From Halobacteriales archaeon QS_4_70_19 (lineage in GTDB: Archaea > Halobacteriota > Halobacteria > Halobacteriales > Haloarculaceae), in the NCBI GenBank assembly GCA_003020985.1, contig PXRM01000034.1, positions 1 through 38,625 on the forward strand: DNA of 38,625 nt, read 5' to 3'. The translations under genes were made by a program, and so were the position numbers. Below are positions 5,342-20,592 of this stretch, in pieces. The notes under the pieces were generated by a model, which ran no database searches, was not told the origin of the DNA, and worked only from the letters and a program-made list of their open reading frames with translations. Within the stretch, counting starts at the first letter, position 1. Every line of letters starts with the position of its first letter.

Positions 5342-8300
5342 TCAGCACTCCGACCAGCCGCAGGCCTCGCACGTCTTGCAGCCCTCGGAGAAGTAGAGGT
5401 TCATCCCGCCGCAGTCGGGGCACTCGGGGCTCTCGCCGGCCTCGATGAGCGACCGGGTGTCGGCGTCCGAACCGCCCTGCTGGGTCGCGGCGCCGGCGCC
5501 GCCGTCCGTCTCCGTCTCCGGCTCCGGCGTCGGCGGCTCGCTCTCGGGTTCGGCGCTGGTCGCGGCCTCGTCGCCCTCGACGGCCTCGTCGAGGCTGGTC
5601 TGCTTGGGGTACGGCTTGTCGATCTCGTCCTCGATGTAGCGGTCGAGCGCCGTCCCGATGGCGTCCGGGATGGAGTTGATCTGCTCGCCCTTGTCCCAGG
5701 CGACCTTCGGGCTCCGGGTGCCCCGGAGCTCGTCGACGATCTCCTCGGGGTCGACGCCCGCACGGAGCGCCGTGGAGATGACCTTCCCCAGCGCCTCCGT
5801 GAAGGAGTTCGTGTAGCCGCCGGAGTGGCCGATGTTGGCGAAGACCTCGAACGGCTGGCCCGTCTCGGGGTCCTCGTTGATGGTGACGTACAGCTTCCCG
5901 TAGCCGGTCTTCACGCGCTGGCTGACGCCGTGGAGCGTGTCCGGGCGGGGCTGCAGGTCGCCGAGCTCCGACTCGCTCGACTCCAGCAGGCTCGCGATGT
6001 CGGCCTCGGCCCGGGCGCGGACCTCCTCGTTCTCGAGGAAGGCCTCCAGCCCGCCGAACGCCTCGTCGACCTGCTCTATGATGGCGGCGGCGGCCTCGGA
6101 CTCGTCCATGTCCGAGAACTCCGCGTTCTGCGAGCGCGTCGTGAGGACCTGCTTCGAGCGGGTGCCGTCACGGTAGACCGTGACGCCCTTGCCGCCGTTC
6201 GCGTAGATGTAGCGGTACACCTCGTCCATGTCCTCCTTCGTCGAATTGTTTGGGAAATTACATGTCTTGCTGATGGCCGAATCCACCCCGTCCTGGCAGG
6301 CACACTGCACGCCGGCGTGCTCCTTGCCGGTCAGGTCCGAGGTGACGACGAACAGCTCGCCGATGGCCGTCGGGACGGTCTCCAGCCCCTCCACCCCGTC
6401 GAACTCGTTGTTCGCCATCTGCTCTTTGGCCTCCTCCTTCACGGCCTCGACGTCGATGTCGTTGGCCTCCAGGGTACGGAGGAAGTAGTCGTCGAACTCG
6501 ACGAGCATCTCGTCGCCCTGCACGTCGTCGGAGACGTTCTTGTAGTAGGCGACGTTGTAGATGGGCTCGGTTGTGCGTGACGAACCCGTCCGCCACGTAG
6601 GTGTTGTTCGACGGAACGGAGATGTCCTTGGTATAGGCCTTCTCCTCCGTCACGGTAGTGACCGTCGCGGCGTAGATGTCCGTCAGTCGACGCCCGTCAA
6701 GTTCGACTGTCTCACCTGTCTCAGCCTCGACATCACGGACGAGTTTCCGGGAGACGGCCCCGTTGATTAGTGACTGGTTGACGCGCTTCTTGATCGACTT
6801 GCTCACCTCGTCATAGCCGTCGAGTCCGCGGAGCACCTCGACGACGGCTGGTGGGTACGTGTCATTCTTGTACGACTGTGGTGTGAGTTCGATTTCCGTC
6901 GACTTCGTGATGAATCCGATCTGATCGAGGTATCGCTTGTCCTCGCGTTTGTTCGCCCCCCGAACGGCGTGTCGAGGACGGTCCCCGTAGTGATTCTCCA
7001 TGTCGGCGGTTTCCAGCGTATCGCGGACGAACACACAGCCTAGGGACAGCAGGAGCGTCTGCACCTGATCGGCGAGCGTCGAGGAGACCGTCGAGAGTTC
7101 CACCTTTCGTGAGGCCGTCCCATCAGCTTCGAACAGTCCCCGAAGGAATGCCTTCGCGACGGCCGTGTCACCGCGGAGGACCGCCTCGGGAACGAACGCA
7201 CTGGCGGCTCCTTCTCCCTCGTTGCCGGACGCTTTCGTCCAGCCGTTGTCTTCGAAGTACCGGGACAGATGGCGGCCGCCGAACGTGAGCATACGGCGAC
7301 TGTCACGGTCTTCGACCGTTGGGGTAACGCCGAACAGCGACTCACCAAGTTCCCGGAGGTGCTCGTCGAGTTCGGTCGCTTCCGACTCGACGACGAGTTT
7401 GACACCGACCTCTTCGTGAACGTATCCGTCCCCCGTGAAGTAGCCGAGGAACTCGGCCAGTTCCGGCGTCATCCGCTCGGGGAGCCGGAGCCGCTTGTCC
7501 GTGTTGTGGTAGTAGTTCTCCCGCTCGGTCGTATCGAGTCGGAGCCGTTCCCCGGACCCGAACGTGTTCCGCTGCATGACGATGCGGTCACCGGGCTCGA
7601 ACTCGTCGGCCTCCTTCCAGGCGTATTCGCCGTCCTCGGTGATCGTTCGGAAGCGGTGATCCGGCGTGGCGGCGACGCTGAACCCGCCCTCGGTTTCGAC
7701 CCGCCGAACGTCAGCGAACCCGTTGTCGTAGACCGCTGTGGCAGCCTTGGTTCCGCCGTCCGTCGAGACGCCGACATCGATCTCGGACCACTGTTCGAAC
7801 TCCGCAGTCGTGTCGTCCAGGTCCTTGATCGGCCGGAGCCCCTCGTCGGTCGAAACCAGCGAGTTCTCTTCGACACAGCCGGTGGGCGCGATCGTCGTCG
7901 TGTTGTGGTTCCGGATGGGGAACCCGTCCGCCCACTCGTCGGCGTCGAGCCCGGTATGGTGCTCGAACCAGTCGCGGTACTCCGTGGGGTCCGCGTACTT
8001 CGATCTCTCCCACTCGTCGAAGCTGCCCCGCTCCTGGGCGAGCTCGTGGCTGGCCCACTTCGAGTCGTGGTTGATCTTCATCATCACCTGCCGGGCGATC
8101 TCGTTGGCCTCCTCGCTCCCGTAGCGCACCCCGAGCTGGACGTACAGCTGCGCGAGGCCCATGATGCCCAGCCCGATCTTCCGCATCTCGCGGACCTTCT
8201 CCTCGATCTCCGGGACCGGGAAGTCCGACATCGTGACGACGTTCTCGAGGAAGCGCGTGCCGAGTTCGATGCGGCGCTCGAACTCGCCGATGTCGAGCGA

Positions 8301-11300
8301 CTCCGCGAGGAACGCCTCGACGCTGTCCTCGAGGGACTCGTCGTCCGGCCGGTCGTCCTTGAAGACGCGCCAGTCCGGCGCCTCCTTCGCGGCCAGCGTG
8401 GAGAGGTTGATGTGCCCGAGGTTGCAGGCCTCGTACTCCTCGAGCGGCTGTTCACCACAGTTATGTACCACTACTCCGTTCCCAACGAAAGAATGGGTAT
8501 CTGGCTCGTTCAAATCATACACTTGTTCATTACTACTGTACTCGACCGACTCAACTGTCGCCGTGAACTCCTCCGAGTACGGCCCGCGTGTGTACGAATC
8601 GATATGCGATTCGAGCTGCCGCTGCTTGTCCTCTCGGAGGAACCCGATTTCGTCGCGGAACCTGATCAGGTTATCCTTCGATATCACTAAATCGTGGAAA
8701 CCCTTGGTTTCGTACGTTTTCGTTCCCCCGTTGCCGTCGGATAATTCTCTTTCGCCCGGAGGCTTCCGGTTCTCGTAGATTTGGCTGGCGATCCCGAAAT
8801 TGAGCAGGAGCTGCTGTGTCTGCTCGAGTAGTTCGAGTTCGGAACTCGCGAGCCGTACCGTTCGACCGTTATCCTTGTTCCCCTGCACGCTCCCGTCGGC
8901 GGTGAAGAGTGCCTGCAGGAAGCCCCGAGCCATCTCCTCGCTCCCGCGCATGACGGCGTCGGGAACCTGATGCTTCTGCTCCGTGAGTCCGAACTGCTCG
9001 GCCATCTCGTAGAGGCGTGCCGAACGGACGCGCTGCTCGGTAGCCTGGGCGCCGCAGTAGTCGTCGTCGCGCGAGATATCGCTGACGCCGACCTCGTAAC
9101 CGGCGTTCCCGACCGGCTCGCGGACGACCTCGTTCAGGTCGTTCGCGAGCGACTGTGAGATATCCGCATCCTCGTCGTAGAAGTTGAGGACGGCACGTTC
9201 CTCGCCGTGCTTGAGATGCCCATCGCCGACGGTCCACCCGAGGACGCGGCCCTCGGCGGCGGAACCGTGCTGGCCGAATCCACCCTTCCGATTCTGGATG
9301 TGAACGGCGTCACCGGCGTCGAGGTTCCGGGCCTCAACCCAGCCGTTGACGGTCATGACGCGGTGGTCGGCGGTGAGACGGAGGCTGTACCCCTCCTCCG
9401 TCGTCAGTTCGTATACGTCCTTCTCGCCCGTTTTGTAGACGCTACTGGCCTCTTTGATGCGGTCGTCGTGGAGCCGTCCGTCGACGACCACGTCCCGAGC
9501 GATACCCTGCTCGTACAGTTCCTCGGCGGGAACGAGCCCGTTCCCGGTGCTGATGAGTGTCTCCCCCGTGACACAGGGGTTCGTCGCGAGGATGCGGTGG
9601 TCCGGGTGCTCCTCGACGTCGAACGAGTGCTGCTTGTTCACCCGCTCGAGGTAGATGACGCCCGGCTCGCCGTTCTCGTGGGCGCCGTCGACGATGCGGT
9701 CCCAGATGAGTTCGGGGTCGATGGTGAGCTCCTCGCCGGGCTCGACGTGCTCGCCCAGCCCGTAGCGGGAGTACATCTCCTTCGTCTCCTCGGTGGCGAT
9801 GTGGGGCTCGCCCGTCCGCGGGCTGGTGAAGGTGAACGCCTCGTCGTTCTCTAGGGCCTCCATGAAGTCGTCCGTGACGCCGACCGAGATGTTGAAGTTC
9901 GAGAGGTGGCCCTCGACGGCGTTCCGGAGGTGCTTGGGGACCTTCCCGTTCTCGTCGATGAGTTCGCGGGCCTCCTCCAGCGCCTCGGAGAAGGAGGTGT
10001 ATGTGAAGTCGTCGGGGTCGTTGAGGCGCAGGGTGTGGGCCAGCGAGACGTCCTTGTTCTTCGCGTGGATGAACTCGATGACGTCCGGGTGGGAGACGCG
10101 CATCACGCCCATCTGGGCGCCCCGCCGGGCGCCGCCCTGGGCGATGGTCTCGCAGTTGTGGACCACGACGTCCTCTGCGACGTAGGTGTGCGTGCCGGCG
10201 ACTTCGGCGTTGTACACCGGTCCCTCGTATGAGATGCGTTCGATCTCGTCGATCGGGACGACCTCGTGTCCGTGCGCCTGCTTCGTTCGATCGACTGCGC
10301 GGAAGTCGTCCGGGACCTCGTCGAACAGCCGCTCCAGCGGTGTCCCGAGCGCGGTACTGACGCTGGCGCTCACCCGGTACGTGGGCTGTCGATCGTCGGG
10401 TGTCCGGCTGTGTCGAGAGAACTGGACTCCACAGCGGAGCCCGGCCTGGAACACCCAGTCGATGATCTCCTCACAGACCAGCTGTAGCCGGACGCGCTGG
10501 CTCTCGCCGCGGGTCTGGAGCGTGCCGTCACCGTCGAACAGCGCCTCGATGACGCGTGCCTGCGTCTCGACCGGGGCGTCCCAGAGGAACTCCGGAACGT
10601 GCTTTTGGCTCGCGCCGGTCCCGAACAGCCCTTCGACGAGCTGTGCGAAGCTCGCGCTTTCAGCGTGGACGACCCGGGTGTTCCGGTCCTCGACGACCTC
10701 GACGCGCGAGGGAACGTCGAAGGCACCCAGCGCATCCCGAATCTCGGCCGCCGCAGCGGTCTCGTCAGCGTGAAGCGTGAACGTCACCTCGTCCGGAATC
10801 CCGCGACGGTAGACCACACATCCCTCGGCGAGATACCAGCCCGCGACGGTGGCGAACGCCTCCATCGAGACCTCCGTCGATATCGGTGCCGGACGCGGTC
10901 CCTCGTCTGCGCCGTAGTGCTCGCGGTTGATCACCGTCCCGCCATCGGTGAACGCCAGTGGGCCGGACGCGACCGTCGAGAGGTCGAGCGTGTCGTCGAG
11001 CGTGAGGCCGTTCTCCGTCGCTGAACTTCCGAGGACGAGCAGATCGTTCTCCGTCAGGTCGGCGGCATCGACCCACTCGAACCCGTCGTCACGCGCGACC
11101 TTGAACGGGTGTTCGGCCGTGGCCCGAATCGGCTCGTCGAGACGTTCCGGGACGACCTCGACGAGTTCCTCGTCGACTTGCCGTTCCATCGTCTCGACGA
11201 CCTGTTGTTCGTGGCCCTCCTCGTCGATCACGAGATCACCCTCCCGAACCGTCTCGATGGGACGCTGCCCGCCGGGAGTGAGAACGTCCGTCCCCGGCGG

Positions 11301-13441
11301 GAAGCACATCTGGTCGAACGTCTCCATGAACGTCATCGGGCCGCTGGCGATTCCCCCCGTGGAGCCGACCGGGTCGCCGAACGGACGGAGCTGCCAGAAG
11401 GCGTAGCCCATCCCGCCGCCGCTGTTGTGTGAGACGAGCCCGTTCGCGACGTACTCCGGGTCGTCGGCGACCGTCACGTCGTAGACGGTGTCCTCGCCCG
11501 CATCTTCGATAGCGACGACGGACTGCTCCCAGGTGGTACCGTCGACGCGACCGACGTTCGCGGAGCGGGTCTCGCTCTCGGCGAGCGCGGTACGGAGCGT
11601 CTCGGTCCGGTCATCGAGGAAGCCGACACGCTCGGCGAACGGCGCCAACCCCTCGCGACCGACGGGGGCGACGGAGGCGTAGTCCCGGTCCTCGTTCGCC
11701 CAGTCCCACCGGTTCGCGGGGATGCCCACACCGAGCATGAGCTGGACGACATCGTCGATCAGTTCGTCGGAGGCGCTGTAGAGTCGGGGATACTTCCCCT
11801 TGATCAGGGTGCCGTCGGCAGTGAACAGCCCACGGAGGAAGCCGGCGGCGACGGAGCGGTCACCCCGCTCGATGGGCGCTGGAACCCGCGCCCCGGTCGA
11901 GGACGGCCTGGCGTCGCCGAAGTTGGCGAGCCACCAGCGCTTGATCTCGTGACTGTGGACGACGGCCTCGTAGCAGCCGTCCGCCCAGGTCCAGTCGACC
12001 CCGGTGTCGAACAGGTCACGGACCCGGCGGTCGAGCGTCTCGAGAACCGACTCCCGCGAGACGTGGAAGCGGATGCCGTCCTGATGAACGGAGCCGTCAC
12101 CGATCCAGAGCCCGACCAGCTCGGCCAGATCATCGCTCAGCGTCTCGGGCTGGCTCACTGTCTTGACCGGGCGGCCGTTCGTCTCCATATCGCGGGCGCG
12201 GCGGAGACTTCCGACCGTCGCGGCGGCCACACCGAGTTCCTCGGCGATCTCGTTATCCGTGCGACCCGCGTCGTGAAGCGATTCGAACGCGTCCTCGTCG
12301 AAGGTCCGGCCCTTCGAGCGACCGCCCTGGCCGTTCGGCGAGAGCCCGAGTTCGTCGGCTCGTCGGCGCTGAACGGTCGACGGGGAGGCATCCAGGCGCT
12401 CGGCGATCTCGTAGTCCGAGAGTCCCTCGGCGTGAAGGCTCTCGATGGCCTCGTTCGAGACGGTCCGGGCGTCCGCCCAGCCGGCACCGCTCGGCACCGT
12501 CTCCAGCGACACCGTCCGGTCCGCCTCGGCCAGCCAGCCCAGACGAACCGAGACGGTGTCGCCTTCGGACACGTCGTCCAGTTCCGTCCACTCACCGTTC
12601 ACCAGCAAGCGGTGGTTCGGCGTCCCAGCGAGTTCGATGCCGCTCTCGGTTTCGAGCCGCCGCGTCGGGGCATCGTCGTACGCGTGGACCTCCTCGACGC
12701 GTTTCGTCCGATAGCCCTCGCTATCACGCTGGACGATTTCGTCACCCGGCTCCACGTCCGCGATGGAGACGGTCCCAACATCTGCGACACGAACCGTGGC
12801 GTCGGCGGTCAGGCACTGGAACACCTCGGCGGCCTCCTTCGCGGTCTGGTGGATGTCCGTGAGGTCGTCACCGGGCGAGTCGACGAAGCAGGCCGAGAGC
12901 TGCTGGAGCTCGTCGCCGGCGTTCATCAGCGTCGGCGAGTTCGGGATGAACGAGAGCTGCTCCATCAGGTCCTGGAACTCGCCGGCCGTCGCCTCGACGT
13001 GGTCGCGGATCCCGTCGGGGAGTTCGGGAACGAGCGTCTCGTACGCGAACTTGTTGACGTTGTGGACGTCGAGGGTCGTCTCCGCGTCGTCCGCGGCGGT
13101 CGTGCCGGCACCGTCTCGCGGGCTCTGCCCGAGACCTCCTCGGCGAGTTCGTCGCGGCGCGGGTGGTCCGGCTTCAGCAGGTCCGGCGTGACCGTCACCT
13201 CCACGTCGCGGCGCTCGGCCTCGAAGACGGCCTCGGCGAGTGCGATGTTGCGCGCGACCCGCTGGAAGAGGTCCTCCTGCTCCTCGACGAAGTTCCCGTC
13301 GGCGTCCTTCTTGAGGTAGCGCGCCGGTAGGATGTTGTGGTAGGCGTTGCCCGTGAGTCGCTCCTCCATCGTGTCGCCCTCCGTCCGCTTGACCGGCAGG
13401 ACGACCTCGTCGGCGTCGACCTCTGGTGTCTCCGAGCTCAT
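5342..13441 (-). CDS. nrdJ: class II (B12-dependent) ribonucleotide reductase, four inteins, two frame breaks
   Basis: The encoded enzyme reduces ribonucleotides to deoxyribonucleotides using adenosylcobalamin. Extein landmarks in order: start [30 protein letters not shown] (redox Cys); [41 protein letters not shown] (radical Cys in the N-x-C-x-E loop and second redox Cys); [24 protein letters not shown]-terminal CPDCGG and CEACGWSEC cysteines. Exteins total about 1,040 residues, a normal size for haloarchaeal NrdJ. Inteins interrupt at VFQ/S, DQM/C, TNP/C and after APTG. The reading frame breaks near 13113-13135 (2 extra nt within a hairpin) and at 6569, where intein 4 meets the C-extein and about 12 codons (TTSM to TGG region) plus frame are missing. 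As written it cannot yield full-length enzyme; either a pseudogene or sequence errors. Confidence 0.9.
6570..7877 (-). mobile_element. nrdJ intein 4 (436 residues), C-terminal junction lost
   Basis: The intein is inserted after NTTTIAPTG. It begins [18 protein letters not shown], has ATPDHRFRT (block B), endonuclease blocks [13 protein letters not shown] and [14 protein letters not shown], and ends [12 protein letters not shown]. The next base begins an out-of-frame CGAGCCC, in which GAG CCC ATC resumes the host at EPIYN. The expected +1 Thr/Ser/Cys and about 12 host codons between APTG and CEPIYN are absent. Without the +1 nucleophile in frame the intein should not splice normally. Confidence 0.9.
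8460..9575 (-). mobile_element. nrdJ intein 3 (372 residues) at the radical cysteine
   Basis: The intein is inserted between RILATNP and [10 protein letters not shown]. It begins [18 protein letters not shown], has [13 protein letters not shown] (block B), endonuclease blocks [13 protein letters not shown] and [14 protein letters not shown], and ends [10 protein letters not shown] followed by Cys. The +1 Cys that it needs for splicing is the thiyl-radical Cys of the host active site (NPCGE). Composition is somewhat less GC-rich than the host exteins. Confidence 0.93.
10155..11306 (-). mobile_element. nrdJ intein 2 (384 residues)
   Basis: The intein is inserted between TFMETFDQM and CETIAQGG. 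It begins [18 protein letters not shown], has ATAEHPFKV (block B), endonuclease blocks [13 protein letters not shown] and [12 protein letters not shown], and ends [10 protein letters not shown] followed by Cys. The splice residues Cys1, the penultimate His, Asn and Cys+1 are intact. The second motif keeps an acidic pair (DGDG), so homing activity may persist. Confidence 0.93.
11424..12815 (-). mobile_element. nrdJ intein 1 (464 residues, LAGLIDADG plus HTH repeats)
   Basis: The intein is inserted between VFQ and SGGGMGYAF. It begins [14 protein letters not shown] (block A), has GTPNHRLL (block B His), endonuclease blocks [13 protein letters not shown] and [14 protein letters not shown], and ends VANGLVSHN followed by Ser. 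All splicing residues are present, so it should splice. Intein residues about 119-215 add two helix-turn-helix-like repeats ([20 protein letters not shown] and [20 protein letters not shown]) between the Hint and endonuclease domains, probably extra DNA-recognition modules for homing. Confidence 0.93.
13113..13135. repeat. palindromic core inside nrdJ at frameshift 1
   Basis: On the plus strand GTCTCG-CG-GGC, loop TCT, GCCCGAGAC. Removing the two extra bases CG (13119-13120) gives a perfect 9-bp hairpin with a 3-nt loop and also restores the frame from LAEEV to AGTTAADD. The core is shared with elements in and around leuD, leuC and the small gene before leuC. Confidence 0.7.
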
Positions 13442-13789
13442 CGCTATCGCCCCCCTTCTCCGAGAGTGAGATCCGAATGCTGTATCATGATGGTGTGTTG
13501 TCGCTCCCTACCGAATAACCCTCGGTAGCACGGGCGTCTGTCGGACGTCTGACGTTCCACTGTCGGCACTGTCCCGACGGACTGTGATGGATTCGCGCGG
13601 GTGTCCGCGCGACACGACCTGTGCTGACTCCCCCTGAACTAATAACCGTAGGCATACCGGAGTGGAAGTGAAACTCGAACCGCGAGAATCGCCCGACGAG
13701 AGCGTGATTTCGACTGGAAGTGACGGGGGGTTGGAGAGCGTACCGGTTCGGCCGACACGTTTACCTCGACAGGCCATCTGGTGGCTCGT
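13442..13789. promoter_or_regulatory. divergent promoter region between nrdJ and small membrane gene
   Basis: About 350 bp between divergent genes. On the minus strand an in-frame micro-ORF ([14 protein letters not shown]) ends 2 nt before the nrdJ ATG. The AT-richer stretch around 13636-13650 (TGAACTAATAACC) is a candidate promoter element. I see no RNA gene here. Confidence 0.4.
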
Positions 13790-14029
13790 ATGCTCCCCGG
13801 CCTCACGCCGCTGCAACTCGGGCCACTCGCGTCCCCGGTGGGACTTATCGGTGCACTGATAGTCGTGCTACTCGCCATCGTGGTCGTCCGGTTCGTCCTC
13901 AAACTGGCCGTCCGCATCGCCATCATCGCCGGCGTCGTCGTGGCCGTCCTCTGGTTCCTCGGCCTGGCCGGCCCGCTCCGGAGCCTCGTGGGCACGGTGG
14001 GGGTGACCCCCGGGCTCCTGGGCGTCTGA
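13790..14029 (+). CDS. small haloarchaeal membrane protein
   Basis: About 79 residues starting at ATG (MLPGLTPLQLGPLASPVG); an in-frame GTG lies three codons upstream. Two hydrophobic helices are packed closely (VGLIGALIVVLLAIVVVRFV and IAIIAGVVVAVLWFLGLAG), with a basic residue pair between them. No domain is recognisable. It lies 53 bp ahead of phoU on the same strand and may share a transcript, but the ATACATATC sequence before phoU offers that gene its own promoter. Confidence 0.7.
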   Translation: MLPGLTPLQLGPLASPVGLIGALIVVLLAIVVVRFVLKLAVRIAIIAGVVVAVLWFLGLAGPLRSLVGTVGVTPGLLGV

Positions 14030-14082
14030 CGGCCGACCGACGGTACCCAATACATATCAGTGGAGGTGGCCTGCTACCGGGC

Positions 14083-14760
14083 ATGCCCCGGGAGAGCTAC
14101 CAATCGCAGCTGGAACAGCTCCGCGAGGACGTCCTCTACATGAGCGAGATCGTGACGGAGCGGTTCCGGAGTGCGCTGTCGGCGCTCGAACGGCGCGACG
14201 AGGAGACCGCCTGGGAGGTCATCGAGGGCGACGACGAGATCAACCAGCTCTACCTCGAACTCGAACAGGACTGCATCGACCTGCTCGCCCTCCAGCAGCC
14301 GGTCGCCAGCGACCTCCGCTTCATTGCCGCCTCGTTCAAGATCATCACGGACCTCGAACGGATCGCCGACCTCGCGACCAACATCGGCGACTACACCCTC
14401 GAGGCCGGCGAGGAGCGCTACCCCGACGTCGACGTCCAGGGGGTCGGGGACGACGTGCTCGAGATGGTCAAGGAGGCAATGGCCGCCTACGCCGAGGAGG
14501 ACCCCGCCCTCTGCCGGGCGGTCGCGGCCCGCGACGACGAGGTGGACGCCCAGTGCGAACGCGCGTCCGACGAGATCGTCCGCAGCCTCATCGAGACGGA
14601 GCTCGACGACCCCGAACACACCGACGCCGAGGCGCTCATGGACGACGTCTCCCGCCTCCTGCTCACCATCCGCGACCTGGAACGCGTCGGCGACCACGCC
14701 GTCAACATCGCCGCCCGTGCGCTGTACATGATCGAGAACGACGACGAACTCATCTACTAG
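14083..14760 (+). CDS. phoU: PhoU family phosphate-signalling protein
   Basis: The 225-residue all-helical protein consists of two PhoU three-helix repeats. Each carries the metal-binding signature: DLRFIAASFKIITDLERIAD with LATNIGDY in the first, and LLLTIRDLERVGDHAVNIAA in the second (E/DxxxD pattern). Length is typical for single PhoU proteins. PhoU modulates phosphate uptake, usually with Pst or PiT transporters. No pst genes are adjacent; a PiT-type permease lies about 19 kb away. Start is the ATG after a TATA-like ATACATATC, consistent with leaderless translation. Confidence 0.92.
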   Translation: MPRESYQSQLEQLREDVLYMSEIVTERFRSALSALERRDEETAWEVIEGDDEINQLYLELEQDCIDLLALQQPVASDLRFIAASFKIITDLERIADLATNIGDYTLEAGEERYPDVDVQGVGDDVLEMVKEAMAAYAEEDPALCRAVAARDDEVDAQCERASDEIVRSLIETELDDPEHTDAEALMDDVSRLLLTIRDLERVGDHAVNIAARALYMIENDDELIY

Positions 14761-14930
14761 AGCCTCTTTCGCGCTCGGGTGTCCCCGGCGCGCCCTTCGA
14801 GCGCGCTTGCGGGCACCGACTGGCCGGTATTGCCGGCCAGCTGTTCGTTCGTCGGCTCCGCCGACGTACCACCCGCGGTCATGGAATCGCGGAGCGGTTC
14901 CACGGGCAATCAAAACGCGCCGCGTTCTGA
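14761..14930. repeat. hairpin mosaic downstream of phoU
   Basis: The spacer is a run of GC-rich inverted repeats: CTGGCCGG/CCGGCCAG, GTCGGC-TCC-GCCGAC, GGAATCGC-GGA-GCGGTTCC (one G.U pair) and AACGCG-C-CGCGTT. The 3-nt loops match the hairpins seen around leuD. It may terminate phoU transcripts or be a degenerate array of the same element. Confidence 0.5.
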
Positions 14931-15196
14931 TGACGCAAGAAACGTTCAGAGAAAGGGCTGCTGGCTCGCTGCGCTCGCGCGTATGCAGAACGCCTATAGA
15001 ATAGATAACACCCACATATACTATAAATAGCGGATAATCATCAAATGTCCGCCCCTATATCAGAATAATGTGGGAACAGTGAGCTTATTCGAGGTTCAAC
15101 CGCGGTAGAACCTCGCCTGCTCCCTGGCGCCCTGCAACGGTCCAATATGGGGGTTGTGGGACAACGCTGATTTAGCGGCCGTTCCTACGGCGTCGC
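14931..15196. other. AT-rich intergenic region with TATA boxes
   Basis: A sharp drop in G+C covers about 14995-15070, including ACTATAAATAGC (15020-15031) and CCTATATCAG. Downstream, GAGGTTC (about 15091) pairs with GAACCTC over a 10-nt loop. This could be an old insertion, a strong promoter, or a small RNA gene of about 100 nt. No coding sequence or tRNA fold is seen. Confidence 0.4.
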
Positions 15197-15673
15197 ATGA
15201 CGGACGACGACCCCGACGGCACGCCCTGGTCCGACCGCATCGTCGGGGCACGGATGGCCGTCGACAGCGAGTTCTCCGACGAGGTCGACCGGTCCGTGTT
15301 CTCCCGGCAGGAGTGGGGACTGGTGATGACCGCCGTCGAGTTCGACATCGAGAACGCAGCCGACGATGGGGCGGCCGAGCTGGTGGCGAACACCGACAAA
15401 CTGCGCGACGTTCTGCCCGAGCTGGAGCGCGCCCGCGAGGCCCAGGCAGCGATGGCTGCCGGCCGGAAACCCGACGACGGGGGCGGCGGCCTGCTCGACA
15501 ACGTGAAAGACGCCCTCGGGTTCGGCGGCAACAGCGCCGAGGAGATCGACGAGGAGCAGCTCCGGGAAGCCAGGCGACTGGCCGACGCCTACGCGCAGGA
15601 ACTCCAGGCTTACCTCGAGTCGAACGGTCGCTGGGCGGAGCTCCGTGCGGCCTACGTCGAACAACACCGGTAA
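15197..15673 (+). CDS. haloarchaeal conserved protein (DUF5799-like)
   Basis: This 158-residue acidic, mostly helical protein has no membrane segment or cysteines. The N-terminal part (WSDRIVGARMAVDSEFSDEV, SRQEWGLVMTAVEFDIEN) is well conserved in haloarchaea as a family I know as DUF5799. A Gly-rich linker (residues about 97-115) leads to a C-terminal helical hairpin. Function is unknown. It converges with leuB across a 150-bp repeat-rich spacer. Confidence 0.8.
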   Translation: MTDDDPDGTPWSDRIVGARMAVDSEFSDEVDRSVFSRQEWGLVMTAVEFDIENAADDGAAELVANTDKLRDVLPELERAREAQAAMAAGRKPDDGGGGLLDNVKDALGFGGNSAEEIDEEQLREARRLADAYAQELQAYLESNGRWAELRAAYVEQHR

Positions 15674-15826
15674 CAACGGCGGTCGCCGGCCACGCTTCTG
15701 ACGCTCCGCATACGCGCGAGCGAAGCGGGTGCGCTTCACCGCCGACGGCCGGAGTCCTCGCGAGCGCAGCGAGCGAGGACCGAAGGCGCTGGTGAGCGAG
15801 GAAACCCGAGGCGTCAGAAAGCTTGT
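15674..15826. repeat. inverted-repeat spacer between convergent genes
   Basis: The spacer carries nested inverted repeats: GTCCTCGC with GCGAGGAC around a GAGCGCAGCGA loop, and GAAGCG with CGCTTC. GCTTCTGACGC at the left end is matched by GCGTCAGAAAGC at the right end. It separates the stops of the DUF5799-like gene and leuB and probably serves as a two-way terminator. Confidence 0.5.
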
Positions 15827-16743
15827 CTAGAGCCGTTCCAGCACCGCCGCCGTCACGTCCTCGGTGGAGGCGTCGCCGCCGAGGTCCGGCGTTCGGGGGC
15901 CGTCGGCCAGCACGTCCTCGACGGCCGCGTGGACCGCGGCGCCCGCGTCGTCGTAGCCGAGGTGCTCCAGCAGCATCGCCGCCGAGACGATGGTCGCGGC
16001 CGGGTTGGCGACGCCCTGGCCGGCGATGTCGGGGGCGGTGCCGTGGACCGGCTCGAACAGCGCGTTCTCCGGGCCGACGTTCGCGCTGGGGAGCAGGCCC
16101 AGGCCGCCGACCAGCCCCGCCGACAGGGCAGCCGGGTCGCGAACGCGTCCATCAGCACCTCCTCCGTCTCGACGCCGCGGTCGTCGGCGACCCGGACGAC
16201 CGCGTCCCGGAAGCGGCCGTCCGTCTCGCGCATCACGTTCGCCTTGTGGGCGACGTGGAAACCGTCAACGTCCCGCTCGGCGGTGTAGTCGCAGGCGAAG
16301 CGGGCGAGCCGCTCCGAGGCGGAGGTGGTCGTCACGCGCGTCAGCGTCGAGAGATCGTCGGAGAGCCGGTCCTCGTGGCCGGCGTAGACGCCCTCCGTGT
16401 TCTCGCGGAGGAAGACCACGTCCGTCTCCGGGCGGAGCGCGTCCACGCCCGGGTACGCCCGGGCGGGCCGGACGTTGACGGACGAGTCGACCGCCTCCCG
16501 AAGCGGGAGGATGACGTCGGCCGCCGTCTCGCCGGCCGCGCCGAACAGCGTCGCGTCGGCGGCCGCCACCGCGTCGTACGTCTCCCCCGGGAGCGCCTCG
16601 CCGGTCTCGGCGAGCACGTCGTCGCCGGCGTCCGCGCGCGTGAACGTGAAGTCGGCGCCGACGGCCTCCAGCACCTCGACTGCGGCCGGCACGACCTCCT
16701 GTCCGATGCCGTCACCCTCGATGACGACGATCTCGTCTGTCAT
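15827..16743 (-). pseudogene. leuB: 3-isopropylmalate dehydrogenase, internal deletion and frameshift
   Basis: LeuB oxidatively decarboxylates 3-isopropylmalate with NAD in leucine synthesis. The N part runs from [17 protein letters not shown] through [13 protein letters not shown] and [15 protein letters not shown] to [10 protein letters not shown]. At 16124-16131 the frame changes and the protein resumes as [35 protein letters not shown] and [21 protein letters not shown]. Compared with the family, about 20-22 residues are missing, including the PNLAGDVLSD motif that supplies the Mg-binding aspartates. The product as written would be inactive. Either the gene is dead (unless another copy exists) or a repeat-mediated assembly error has occurred. 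It is the last leucine gene on this strand. Confidence 0.88.
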
Positions 16744-16861
16744 GCCCCGGGATGGGCGGGGCCGGCGAAAGAGGGTGTCGGTCCGCGTGAGCGGCAGTCT
16801 GACCCCAGTCGATGCCAGGCTCCCGGAGACATACACCTCCCTCGAAGACGTGGTGGGCGAG

Positions 16862-17299
16862 ATGATTGCACCCCCCGTCAGTGGAATCACCGTGCTCCAC
16901 GGCGAGGACGACGCGGCGTTCGCCGACCTGGCCGGCGACGTGCTCGACCTCGTCGCCGACGACATGACGGTCACGACCGCCCCCGATGCGGACGCGGCAC
17001 TGGAGCGATTCGGCGAAGACGGGCGACGCCGCTACGCCGACGACGCCGCCGTCGAGTTCCTGAAGACGGACGGGGTGATCGACCTGGTCGACGAGCCGAT
17101 GACCGAATTCCTCCACCCGGACGATCAGGAACGAGCCGTGGAACGGTTCGAAAGCCCCATCAGGGAGGTCGAATCCGCTCCGGAGATCGAGTACCGAATC
17201 CGGAAGTCGAGGGCACGACGAAGCGGGTGACCCTCGTCCGTGCCAGGCCACCACCGGGGCGAGACGGTCGCACAGGTCGTCGTCCGGACGAGCGAGTAG
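16862..17299 (+). pseudogene. remnant of receiver/PAS signalling protein
   Basis: The reading frame starts [20 protein letters not shown], the first strand and acidic pocket of a response-regulator receiver domain, and continues to DADAALERF. It then jumps directly into a PAS-domain piece (YADDAAVEFLKTDGVIDL, DEPMTEFLHPDDQERAVERF, EIEYRIRKS). After a stop at 17228-17230, another frame continues the PAS end (HHRGETVAQVVVRTSE). The phosphoacceptor half of the receiver and everything after PAS are missing, so this is the wreck of a hybrid histidine kinase or HTH sensor. It lies between leuB and leuD and interrupts the leucine block. Confidence 0.75.
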
Positions 17300-17303
17300 G
17301 CCG

Positions 17304-17753
17304 TCAACTGCCCGCTCGTCGCGTCACGACGCCCCGCCCCCACCGGACCGCGACACCGCCACCGAACGCAAGCGCGCCGAGCAGCACCGCGAACGGCATC
17401 CAGAACTCCCATGAGCCACTACCGCCGAACGAGAGGATCAGCGCGACGGGCGCGCCGCGCTCCTCGTAGGCGAACAGCCACGCGTAGTAGGTAAGCCGCC
17501 CCAGCACCGGCCCGAGCACGAGCGCGGCGCTCACGACGAGCCCGCTGTTCCGGTAGGCCCACCACCCCGCCAGCGTGACCCCGGCGAGCACCCCACCCGG
17601 TTCGAGGACGGCCCCCAGCCCCGGCATCGCGGGGAGTTCCCCCAGGAACGAGCCGCCCAGCACGAGGGCGTACAGCCCCGTCGCGACCGTGGCGCCCTCG
17701 AGCGACCGGACGCGGTCGACGCCGACGATCGCGGCACGGAGGTCGACCTCCAT
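17304..17753 (-). CDS. hypothetical four-helix membrane protein
   Basis: The 149-residue protein begins MEVDLRAAIVGVDRVRSLEG. It has four hydrophobic segments, about residues 20-40, 48-68, 72-95 and 112-135, and an Arg-rich C-terminus on the presumed cytoplasmic side. I do not recognise a family. It points the same way as leuD and leuB but has its own AT-rich upstream region (17754-17900) and is probably not part of leucine synthesis. Confidence 0.65.
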   Translation of the reverse strand: MEVDLRAAIVGVDRVRSLEGATVATGLYALVLGGSFLGELPAMPGLGAVLEPGGVLAGVTLAGWWAYRNSGLVVSAALVLGPVLGRLTYYAWLFAYEERGAPVALILSFGGSGSWEFWMPFAVLLGALAFGGGVAVRWGRGVVTRRAGS

Positions 17754-17916
17754 GCAGGGGACCGCTCCCGCCGGCAGAATAATCCTGACGGTAGTTCAAA
17801 CAACCGTCGTGCGAGGCGCATAACGGATATAAGTGCCAGGCAAATATTTTGTATCGACTACTGGACGCAGAACCAGGCAGTTCGAGGAGAGCTAGCGCGG
17901 AAACGGGGAACGAGCC

Positions 17917-18639
17917 TCAGTCGCTCCCGACGTACGGCAGGTCCGCGGCCGTCTCGGCGATGGCCTGCTCGTTGGCCTTCATCAGCGCGGTCGTGTCCCA
18001 GATGCCGTCGACCAGCGCCTTCCGCTGGGCGTCGTCGACGGAGACGCCGATCTCCTGGCCGCCGTAGGCGACCGTCTCGGCGGCCACGTCGACCTCGATC
18101 TCCCCGTCGGGGTTGTCGTCGACCCACTGCTGCAGGTCGTCGATCGTCTCGTGATCCGCCGTGACTGTGGGGATGCCGAGCGCGAGGCAGTTGCCCGCGA
18201 AGATCTCGGCGAAGCCCTCGCCGATGAGCGCGTCGATGCCCCAGCGCATCAGCGCCTGCGGGGCGTGCTCCCGGGAGGAACCACAGCCGAAGTTGTTGTT
18301 GACCACCATGACGTTCGCGTCCTGGAACCGCTCCTCGTTCATGGGGTGGTCCTTCTCGTTGTCGGCGTCTACGACGGCTTCGCCGTCTTCTCGTGGGCTT
18401 TGCCCGCTCGAACGGTCCGAGGCGCTTCGCGCCTCGCTATCTTCTCTCTGCGACTCCTCCGGAGTCGCGCTGTCGAACCGCTGGTCGAAGAAGGAAAACT
18501 GGCCCAGGCCGTCGAACGTGACGACCTTCATGAACCGCGCGGGGATGATCTGGTCGGTGTCGATGTCGTTCCCGCGGATGGGGATGCCGGTCCCCTCGAC
18601 GTGGTCGACCTCGGGGATCTCCTCGGTGGGGTCGCTCAT
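17917..18639 (-). CDS. leuD: 3-isopropylmalate dehydratase small subunit with palindromic insert
   Basis: LeuD is the swivel-domain subunit that, with LeuC, isomerises 2- to 3-isopropylmalate. Hallmarks are GNDIDTDQIIPARFMK, NNNFGCGSSREHAPQALMRW, FAEIFAGNCLALGIPTV and a C-terminal GIWDTTALMKAN. At 240 residues it is about 35-40 longer than typical. Between FDQRFD and NEKDHPMNEERF, where relatives have a few residues, it carries a Ser/Arg/Glu-rich stretch (SQREDSEARSASDRSSGQSP and on). That stretch is encoded by four back-to-back hairpins (18373-18468) and is in frame. It lies in a surface loop before the conserved domain, so activity may be kept. The start overlaps the end of the leuC-leuD linker ORF (ATGA). 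Confidence 0.92.
   Translation of the reverse strand: MSDPTEEIPEVDHVEGTGIPIRGNDIDTDQIIPARFMKVVTFDGLGQFSFFDQRFDSATPEESQREDSEARSASDRSSGQSPREDGEAVVDADNEKDHPMNEERFQDANVMVVNNNFGCGSSREHAPQALMRWGIDALIGEGFAEIFAGNCLALGIPTVTADHETIDDLQQWVDDNPDGEIEVDVAAETVAYGGQEIGVSVDDAQRKALVDGIWDTTALMKANEQAIAETAADLPYVGSD
18366..18475. repeat. array of four 3-nt-loop hairpins inside leuD
   Basis: Plus-strand hairpins are GACGGC-TTC-GCCGTC (18373-18387), GTGGGC-TTT-GCCCGC (18393-18407, one mismatch), GAGGCGC-TTC-GCGCCTC (18419-18435, 8 bp with flanks) and GCGACTCC-TCC-GGAGTCGC (18450-18468). Total insertion length is compatible with a multiple of three, because the LeuD frame stays open on both sides. Confidence 0.8.
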
Positions 18640-18803
18640 GCGACCACCTCCAGCGCGTCGCGCTGTCGGGGTCGCATGGGGCGCTCACGGGTCGCTCCGC
18701 TCCCCGTCTGCTCGCGGGCCATCGGCCCGCTCGCGTGGTCCGAGGGACGCATCGCGTCCGTCGCTATTCGCCTGTCCGAGACGCGTAGCGTCTCGCTTCT
18801 CAT
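18636..18803 (-). CDS. 55-codon hairpin-encoded ORF bridging leuC and leuD
   Basis: The ORF starts at an ATG overlapping the leuC stop (ATGA) and stops with TGA overlapping the leuD ATG, so all three frames are chained. The product ([20 protein letters not shown] and on, ending LEVVA) is Arg/Ser/Ala-rich and resembles no fold. It is encoded almost entirely by hairpins: GAGACGC/GCGTCTC (18778-18794), GGACGC/GCGTCC (18745-18759), GCGGGCC/GGCCCGC (18714-18730) and CAGCGC/GCGCTG (18651-18665), all with 3-nt loops. It may be a real translated linker that keeps leuC and leuD coupled, or simply an inserted element that stays open. Confidence 0.5.
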
Positions 18804-20221
18804 GCCGGCTGCACCTCTTTCAGGTCGCGCACGTCGGTCACCTCGCCCGTGATGGCCGCGGCGGCCACCATCCGGGGGTTCATCAGGACGGTCCGTCCGT
18901 CCTTGCTGCCCTGCCGGCCGACGAAGTTGCGGTTGGAGGAGGAGGCACACGCCTCGTCACCCTCGAGCTGGTCCTCGTTCATGCCGAGACACATCGAGCA
19001 GCCCGCGTTCCGCCAGTCGAAGCCGGCCTCGCGGAAGATATCCGCGAGCCCCTCCTCCTCGGCGGCGCGCTGGACGCGCTGGCTGCCGGGGACGACGAAC
19101 GCGCGGACGTCGTCGGCGACCTGTCGGTCCTTCACGATGCGGGCAGCCCGGCGCAGGTCCGGGAGCCGCGCGTTCGTACAGGAGCCCAGAAAGGCGACGT
19201 CGACGTCGTACCCCTCCATCGTCTCGCCGGGCTCGACGCGCATGTGCTTCTGGGCGCGCCGGGCCGTGTCCTGCTTGTCCCCGGGCAGGTCCTCCGGCGC
19301 CGGGATGGGGTCGTGGATGCCGACGCCCTGTCCGGGGGTGGTCCCCCAGGTGACGACGGGGTCCAGCTCCGAGGCGTCGATGGTGACGACGTCGTCGTAC
19401 TCCGCATCGTCGTCGCTCCGGATGGACTCCCAGTACGGCTTCAGCTCGTCGAACTCCCCGGGGTTCGCCCGGAAGTAGTCCGTCCCCTCCAGCCACTCGT
19501 AGGTGGTCTCGTCCGGGTTGACGTAGCCCGCGCGGGCGCCACCCTCGATGGACATGTTGCAGATGGACATTCGGCCCTCCATGTCCAGGTTCTCGATGGC
19601 CTCGCCGGCGTACTCGTAGACGTAGCCGACGCCGCCCTCCGTCCCGAGCCGGCGGATGATCTCCAGGACGATGTCCTTGGCCTCGACGCCCTCGCCGAGT
19701 TCGCCGTCGACCTGGATCTTGCGGACCTTCTGCTTCTCCATCGCGACCGTCTGGGTCGCGAGCACGTCTCGAATCTGCGAGGTCCCGATGCCGAACGCCA
19801 GTGCGCCGAACGCGCCGTGCGTCGAGGTGTGGGAGTCCCCACAGACGATGGTCCTGCCGGGCTGGGTGATGCCCTGCTCCGGCCCGATGACGTGGACGAT
19901 GCCCTGGTTGCCCGTCGTGGGGTCGTCGAACTGGATGCCCGCATCGCGGACGTTCTCCTCCCGTTCGGCCATCATCTCCTCGGCGGCGTCGTCGCTGTAC
20001 GGGCGCGACTGGTCCGCCGTCGGGACGATGTGGTCGACCGTGGCGTGGGTCAGGTCCGGCCGCGCGACCTCCAGGTCCCGCTCCCGGAGCATGCCGAACG
20101 CCTGCGGGCTCGTCACCTCGTGGATGAGGTGGAGACCGACGAACAGCTGGTCCTGCCCGTTCGGCAGGGTCGTGACCCTGTGGCGGTCCCAGACCTTGTC
20201 GTAGAGCGTCCCCTGGCTCAT
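18800..20221 (-). CDS. leuC: 3-isopropylmalate dehydratase large subunit
   Basis: This 473-residue, full-length bacterial-type LeuC begins [20 protein letters not shown] and continues [17 protein letters not shown]. Aconitase-family 4Fe-4S ligands are visible in [13 protein letters not shown] and [11 protein letters not shown], and the substrate motif in [23 protein letters not shown]. It forms the heterodimer with LeuD. The start overlaps the preceding gene's stop (ATGA), and its stop overlaps the linker ORF before leuD, indicating one translationally coupled operon. Confidence 0.97.
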
Positions 20222-20592
20222 CTATTCTCCTCGCGGCCCTCGTGGCCGCGCTCGTACACCGCGTTGGTTCCCTCGGTGTCGCCGGGCGGCGTGTGCGCCA
20301 CGTCCTTCAGTTCCTCGGGCTCGGCCTCGCCGCCGTCGGTGGCGGGCTCGCCATCGGCGGTCGCGTCGGCGTTGGCCTCGCGTTCGGGGTCGCTGCCCCC
20401 GTCCGCGGCGATGGTGCGGCCACGGTCGTACGTCTGCGTGGCACCGAACGCCTCGTTCGTGAAGGGGTTCGTGTGGCTCAGCTCGCCCAGCGTCTTCGGT
20501 GCGGTTTCGTCCTCGCGGGCGTGGCCCGCTGCGGTTTCGTCCTCGCGGGCGTGGCCCGCTGTGGTCTCGTCGGTGGGTGTGTCCTCTGTCAT
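20218..20592 (-). CDS. small acidic protein conserved between ilvC and leuC
   Basis: The 124-residue acidic, disordered-looking protein carries the short motifs [20 protein letters not shown] and [20 protein letters not shown]. In other haloarchaea, as I recall, a protein with these paired motifs occupies the same place in the ilv-leu cluster; its function is unknown, and it could be a small adaptor or regulator. The N-terminus contains a duplicated decapeptide ([10 protein letters not shown] twice) produced by a perfect 30-bp tandem repeat with a hairpin in each copy. It overlaps the leuC start by 4 nt and begins 6 nt after the ilvC stop. Confidence 0.8.
20501..20560. repeat. perfect 30-bp tandem duplication with hairpin cores
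   Basis: Two identical copies (20501-20530 and 20531-20560) each contain GCGGGC-GTG-GCCCGC. The unit adds 10 in-frame codons to the small gene before leuC. The core is the one shared with the nrdJ, leuD and leuC-leuD elements. Confidence 0.9.

Follow-up and report, generated by a model that had tools for sequence, protein, structure and literature searches.

Short, probably mobile palindromic elements occupy one used reading within genes of the class Halobacteria

Introduction

Palindromic elements that form part of protein-coding sequence are, according to the passages compared here (from PMC10969869, PMC3733652, PMC3119063 and PMC12306157), known mainly from Rickettsia, with intragenic repetitive extragenic palindromes (REPs) in some other bacteria. 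A 38,625-nt stretch of DNA from the Halobacteriales archaeon QS_4_70_19 (assembly GCA_003020985.1, contig PXRM01000034.1, positions 1 to 38,625; hereafter the window) raises the question whether such elements exist also in haloarchaea. An earlier note on this DNA had pointed to five places, one each in nrdJ, leuD and the leuC-leuD linker and two before leuC, had assigned them to one family with the hairpin GCGGGC-nnn-GCCCGC as its core, and had named the Rickettsia palindromic elements (RPEs) as the nearest analogue. All five places could be located in the sequence. The actual unit, however, is not a single hairpin but a 54-nt core with two, and judging from the sequences compared here, a family of short mobile palindromic elements very probably inhabits the class Halobacteria, present or absent as clean steps and placed in genes in one used frame.

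Results

On the minus strand of the window the unit reads TAGCG, hairpin, TCGGACCrTTCGAGC, hairpin, GCGAGAAGA, usually in 54 nt (18 codons); its two hairpins have mostly 3-base loops, the spacer between them is nearly fixed, and the ends are TAGCG and GAGAAGA. The two bases to the left of the unit are merely purines, no fixed tetranucleotide being found there. The leuD and linker copies are full members and share a longer order of parts: hairpin 1, a spacer to TAGCGA, hairpin 2, TCGGACCnnnCGAGC, hairpin 3, a GAG-containing tail to AGA, and hairpin 4. Their stem sequences differ while the pairing is kept, with one mismatch in each. The composites of the core and an outer hairpin module measure 99-114 nt. 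A covariance model of the whole unit (R1) was built from alignment A1 with ten seeds, located by an exact spacer pattern and picked by eye from their sequence contexts. The window and the remaining contigs of its genome supplied two each, and six came from other genomes. The first pattern search had given 11 matches, four of which were taken, leaving out L005 with its opened hairpin and six chance-looking ones; from the eight non-own matches of the second search L018 and L020 were left out. Under R1 the leuD unit scored 86 bits (E 1.5e-27) and the linker unit 59 bits (E 2.9e-18), each copy being itself a seed, and both folded better than all of 200 shuffles (z -3.8 and -4.3). The single-family claim holds for these two copies only: those before leuC reached 11 bits each (fold of the pair z -3.2) and the nrdJ place 8.9 bits (z -0.7), since each contains a single hairpin.

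The earlier note would have given up its reading if the core were no more frequent than base composition predicts. With up to two mismatches, GCGGGCnnnGCCCGCGAG matched ten times in the window, nrdJ being counted once per strand. Dinucleotide-preserving shuffles gave 1.46 +/- 1.20 matches and none of the 100 reached ten, an excess that rules out chance GC-rich palindromes. The ten matches include nrdJ, leuD and the leuC pair; the linker copy, with its longer stem, is not among them.

The pairing of the stems was followed in a larger alignment (A3), which holds 107 matches at 100 loci and was drawn largely from the upper end of a list ranked by score. In its 104 distinct copies 99.1% of the cells held standard pairs, in an alignment fitted to the model, and slid controls were paired in 24-55%. 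Changes on both sides occurred in six of 14 pairs and in 149 cells, where shuffles gave 51.4. An alignment of the seeds, produced with MAFFT independently of the model but with the structure taken from the same sequences, was paired in 97.6% of cells, with nine two-sided cells against 2.3. The compensating changes in the stems accompany amino-acid changes in the encoded peptide (SEAQSASD, SAERSSAD, SEGRSPSD).

LeuD offers a direct comparison of filled and empty sites. Based on its identity to the LeuD of H. halophilum (96%) and H. irregulare (92%), the window belongs to the genus Haloglomus. From 90 leuD loci 89 could be read by script, and 87 of these share a 32-residue spacing devoid of insert; the one remaining locus also shows no insert on translation. 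Seven locus pairs are identical over the stretch compared, the same genome being present in two collections, which leaves about 82 distinct loci. The segment is thus not ordinary conserved sequence of all orthologues, the second finding that would have told against the earlier note. The two filled loci are the window (+34 residues) and L162 of a genome from another genus (+15 residues), where the outer module stands at the same site without the core. The AlphaFold model of LeuD had a mean predicted local distance difference test score of 58.9, with residues 28-99, the insert included, below 50, therefore no claim is made from it on the position of the loop; solved structures were searched for the insert peptide and none was found. 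As a separate observation, an insert unlike these, about 18 residues long and with two hairpin-like DNA repeats, lies near the C-terminus of the LeuD of Haloarcula pellucida (L199, 6001-6663) and represents another type at another site.

The same comparison was extended to eight further genes. Filled and empty loci numbered 4 and 17 for GatE, 2 and 16 for NrdJ, 1 and 8 for CarB, 1 and 11 for endonuclease III, 2 and 2 for SufD (with one other insert), 2 and 8 for TopA (two other), 3 and 12 for IleRS (two partial) and 2 and 9 for TrpB (three other). Every length difference in these genes is a multiple of three, and a clean step of 54 nt is seen in five of them: GatE (three of the four loci), NrdJ, SufD, CarB and IleRS (L058 against L254); in TrpB the step is 54 or 57 nt depending on the relative. 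At matched pairs the inserted unit runs from TAGCG to AGA (ACA in CarB), its ends do not copy the flanks and no target-site duplication was seen. In TopA (L052 against L322) an older hairpin holds the unit within its GAA loop. By count of loci, empty sites are the commoner state for LeuD, GatE, NrdJ and CarB. The host genes, named with NCBIfam (endonuclease III, CarB, ValRS and CobN below the curated cut-offs, the last three as fragments), have unrelated functions. The earlier note had proposed to survey haloarchaeal genomes with a covariance model for hits interrupting otherwise conserved proteins at lengths that are multiples of three, and such hits were found across the class.

In order to establish the reading used in genes, the flanks of the 107 copies in A3 were scored for codon usage, with three genes of the window as the training set. 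Both flanks were called coding in 41, and in 35 of these the two sides agreed in strand and frame, all 35 in the one reading ..SEAQSASDHSSGQSPRE..; among the other six, the two flanks of four copies shared the strand but differed in frame, one was such a pair on the reverse strand and one had opposite strands. When one-sided calls were included, 66 copies in 51 gene clusters supported this single reading only. Their cores measure 54 nt (63 copies), 51 nt (two) or 60 nt (one), so all 66 are divisible by three, compared with 32 of the 41 others (nine not; Fisher p 1e-4, the copies not being independent). Of 94 cores of 54 nt, 69 contained a stop in one forward reading, one did in the used reading and 0-4 did in the other four. 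The peptide of the used reading is hydrophilic and rich in Ser, Glu and Asp, with a mean charge of +0.14 and 11% hydrophobic residues, against +1.0 to +4.0 and 26-46% in the other five readings. It is apparently the peptide that selection acts on in the choice of frame, and not the lack of stops alone; the addition of about 18 residues with an unbroken reading frame appears, from these sequences, to be tolerated by the host proteins.

The genome to which the window belongs is 82% complete and consists of 46 contigs. With 150 candidates scored in each scan of it, R1 gave 36 matches at E <= 1, and R2, a later model used for this recount and for the phylum-wide search, gave 18 at E <= 0.01. In the class-wide scan, limited to 16 scored candidates for each genome, 267 of 292 genomes and 71 of 78 genera had a match at E <= 0.01; the 25 genomes of the class that had no match served as a background of similar composition. 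In a draw of 294 genomes across the phylum, 50 of the 53 genomes from the same order had a match at E <= 0.001 (best 2.2e-28), compared with six of 241 outside it, all weak (best 4.4e-5); the six exceed the prediction from the stated E-values, which are rough. Copies are more alike within a genome (88.6%, 45 pairs) than between genomes (82.7%), a difference reached in none of 301 label shuffles (94 copies, 67 genomes), and this higher likeness fits a spread within lineages.

Among 72,556 plasmid records nine match the leuD unit, eight of them under an annotated gene (merA in four) and one in unannotated sequence. In plasmids of cultured haloarchaea the unit lies in the annotated genes for CobN of Natronococcus occultus SP4 and a mismatch repair protein of Halorussus aquaticus, in both of which the used frame is open across roughly 100 codons. 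The merA genes with the unit (H1, H2, H4 and H6) are on four plasmids of three haloarchaeal genera and perhaps go back to a single insertion carried along with the gene. A viral source was rejected, as seven viral contig stretches had an exact pattern match but none was recovered by the model at E <= 0.001.

Discussion

Taken together, these comparisons make it very probable that the units are mobile. The element is present or absent at a site as a clean step, with no target duplication, and stands either by itself or within an older module of two hairpins. It may move in the form of a folded single strand, by means of an enzyme provided in trans: a single-strand mechanism is indicated by the lack of target duplication, the hairpins near both ends and the insertion in a hairpin loop. 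Purifying selection could account for the one-frame bias, because the used reading is almost free of stops and its peptide has, of all six, the lowest hydrophobicity and the smallest positive charge. Several observations weigh against such mobility. No transposition event was observed and no mover was identified in this material. The stems belong mainly to four types, hence few independent events stand behind the covariation, and a few of the 45 within-genome pairs are in the same locus. Furthermore, 15 of the 107 copies have a call in another reading and 26 have no coding call, and the sites in GatE, NrdJ, SufD and LeuD are recurrent, so part of the distribution may be due to inheritance or gene transfer.

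As to the mover, a Y1 (HUH) transposase of the IS200/IS605 or RAYT (REP-associated tyrosine transposase) kind acting in trans on REP-like or PATE-like units would be a special case of the mobility proposed above, and it is a possibility that we regard as somewhat doubtful. It would agree with the mechanistic signs just listed, with the 5' TAG, with the Y1 gene in nine of 12 genomes tested and with the passages of PMC3119063 on the PATEs and SMRs of Haloquadratum, which are alike in some of these respects. Nevertheless the other three of the 12 genomes, all element-rich, gave no Y1_Tnp match, while an element-free genome had ten, mostly broken; at 30 Y1 loci only four weak model hits were found (best E 0.0014), none of them a strong unit flanking a Y1 gene, and the purines to the left of the unit do not form a fixed tetranucleotide. 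These absences, which also count against mobility as such, rule out a Y1 transposase as a required resident partner. Copying by a reverse transcriptase related to retrons, diversity-generating retroelements or group II introns might account for structured copies that lack target duplications, yet RVT_1 was found in none of the 12 genomes, with a control search positive in three of 14 known genomes; an enzyme of the RVT_1 kind is thereby ruled out, and this route is scarcely credible.

The structure could alternatively serve the messenger, as a regulatory RNA or processing site copied for its function there. Covariation on the sense strand would suit such an element, as would the orientation along the gene, which is the same in all 35 copies whose two flanks were called as one gene; the host functions are unrelated, however, and the orientation is accounted for by frame tolerance. 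Rfam 15, applied to the window, L002, L005 and L011, gave four matches; all stayed below the gathering scores, and the leuD, linker, L002 and L011 units were free of them. A known RNA family at these units is thereby ruled out, and we consider an RNA-level element unlikely. A conserved peptide motif under selection, with the palindrome as a by-product of codon usage, is very improbable. The peptide is indeed recognisable across many proteins, but its amino acids change together while the stems stay paired, the structure is kept in the non-coding linker copy, and most orthologues lack the segment.

Among the known systems, RPEs are palindromic, in frame and dispersed in unrelated genes of one lineage, according to the passages of PMC10969869 and PMC3733652 on them. 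The analogy drawn in the earlier note agrees with these in part: the haloarchaeal unit is likewise palindromic and inserted in frame in genes of unrelated function, but RPEs are about 150 bp long, a length that the 54-nt core does not attain, and the present unit is archaeal, consists of two tandem hairpins with a fixed spacer, extends over a whole class and is sometimes nested in an older module. The intragenic GTAG/CGTC REPs (Di Nocera 2013, PMC3733652) resemble it as short palindromes, some in genes, with TAG at one end; they differ, in the passages compared, in being 20-40 bp long and mostly between genes, and in the RAYT partner discussed there. Of the 107 high-scoring copies in the present score-ranked sample, 66 have their coding calls in a single reading, and no Y1 tyrosine transposase was consistently associated with the units (12 genomes, 30 loci). 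Since the length of RPEs and the extragenic position and Y1 partner of REP/RAYT systems all fail to apply, the unit was filed in none of the groups compared; by analogy, the best reading is that it works like RPEs or intragenic REPs. The lack of target-site duplication and the subterminal palindromes are shared with PATEs and IS200/IS605 derivatives. The ends are not complementary to each other, so the terminal inverted repeats of miniature inverted-repeat transposable elements are lacking, as is their target duplication.

The nearest haloarchaeal elements found are the PATEs and SMRs of Haloquadratum walsbyi. In the passages of PMC3119063 they are also transposase-free, with no target duplication, and SMR-A enters palindromes of other elements; SMR-A is, unlike the unit, about 110 bp long with terminal inverted repeats, the PATEs are tied to IS605 ends, and these passages do not describe in-frame insertion in proteins. 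REPINs, in the part of PMC3116915 compared, are likewise a miniature mobile DNA family evolving within genomes, described for bacteria. The main text of Di Nocera 2013 (PMC3733652) contains no word beginning with 'halo'. The earlier note knew of no named haloarchaeal equivalent, and in the open-access literature searched no earlier description of the element was found.

This would be a case of protein-coding palindromes in another domain, class-wide, inside IleRS, ValRS, GatE, TopA, CarB, TrpB, SufD and LeuD. How selfish DNA turns into protein is an old question, and it could here be put to the test in haloarchaea that are open to culture and genetic work. The case also concerns annotation, where such inserts are easily mistaken for ordinary conserved protein sequence. 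A wider proposal, which we hold only tentatively but consider nearly as plausible as not, is that these are class-wide archaeal protein-coding mobile palindromes, one reading of which has evolved to a harmless, halophile-compatible peptide, which move by an undescribed single-strand machinery, build nested arrays and thereby supply new loops steadily to housekeeping enzymes throughout the haloarchaea.

Other features of the window and related units

The features of the window are collected in Table 1. According to the earlier note the copies lie in or bridge coding sequence and mostly keep the frame, which is true for leuD and the leuC pair; at nrdJ the frame is lost, and the linker copy is inside neither gene. 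The linker array has an orthologue in the congener G033 and is absent from four other Haloglomus loci (L164 and L191 are identical in sequence); Halapricum hydrolyticum (L207) has a similar leuC-leuD linker in which the core is missing.

Table 1. Positions of the palindromic units and their leuD host in the window
Feature	Position	Strand	Basis
leuD carrying the insert	17917..18639	-	Pfam Aconitase_C; PDB chains of 3-isopropylmalate dehydratase small subunit
Whole leuD insert, 102 nt (34 aa), in frame; outer hairpin module plus 54-nt core	18370..18471	-	alignment with congener G033
54-nt core in leuD, TAGCGA...GAGAAGA, reads DSEARSASDRSSGQSPRED	18386..18439	-	model R1
Four-hairpin array in leuC-leuD linker, non-coding	18688..18795	-	fold z -4.34
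60-nt core unit in linker	18707..18766	-	model R1
Two tandem 30-nt one-hairpin units (AGHAREDET) in small gene before leuC	20501..20560	-	sequence; related hairpin, not full unit
nrdJ hairpin-3 remnant, 29 nt against 12 in two congeners	13104..13132	-	comparison with L387 and L389

The two copies before leuC form a tandem repeat of their own, with one hairpin in each. The small gene carrying them is 63 nt longer, in frame, than that of Haloglomus halophilum, and the repeat occurs neither in H. halophilum (L191) nor in H. irregulare (L193); a similar repeat is present three times in a 341-codon open frame elsewhere in the own genome (L048). At the nrdJ site the window is 17 nt longer than L387 and L389, and the frame is therefore lost; a third congener, L388, reads through with no insert. 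An intact 54-nt unit stands at this site in L076 and L155. A decayed copy is the likeliest explanation for the 29 nt in the window, and an assembly error is a lesser possibility. The nrdJ gene itself (6258-12965, minus strand) contains four intein splicing domains (four stretches of Pfam Intein_splicing and three of LAGLIDADG_3), and past the last intein its reading looks, by eye, frame-shifted.

Elsewhere in the own genome, around position 1500 of L005/L027, an array was seen whose hairpin 3 is opened by two more hairpins, which suggests nested insertion. In L055, around 1501-1573, a unit stands at the end of a reading resembling tnpB, within what we take to be the right-end hairpin of an IS605-type element. 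Further in-frame inserts of a looser GGARSAP..SSGE..PR type, recognized from translations, occur in other open readings of the own genome (L045, L040, L038, L374 and L375), which suggests related families of units beyond the 54-nt one.

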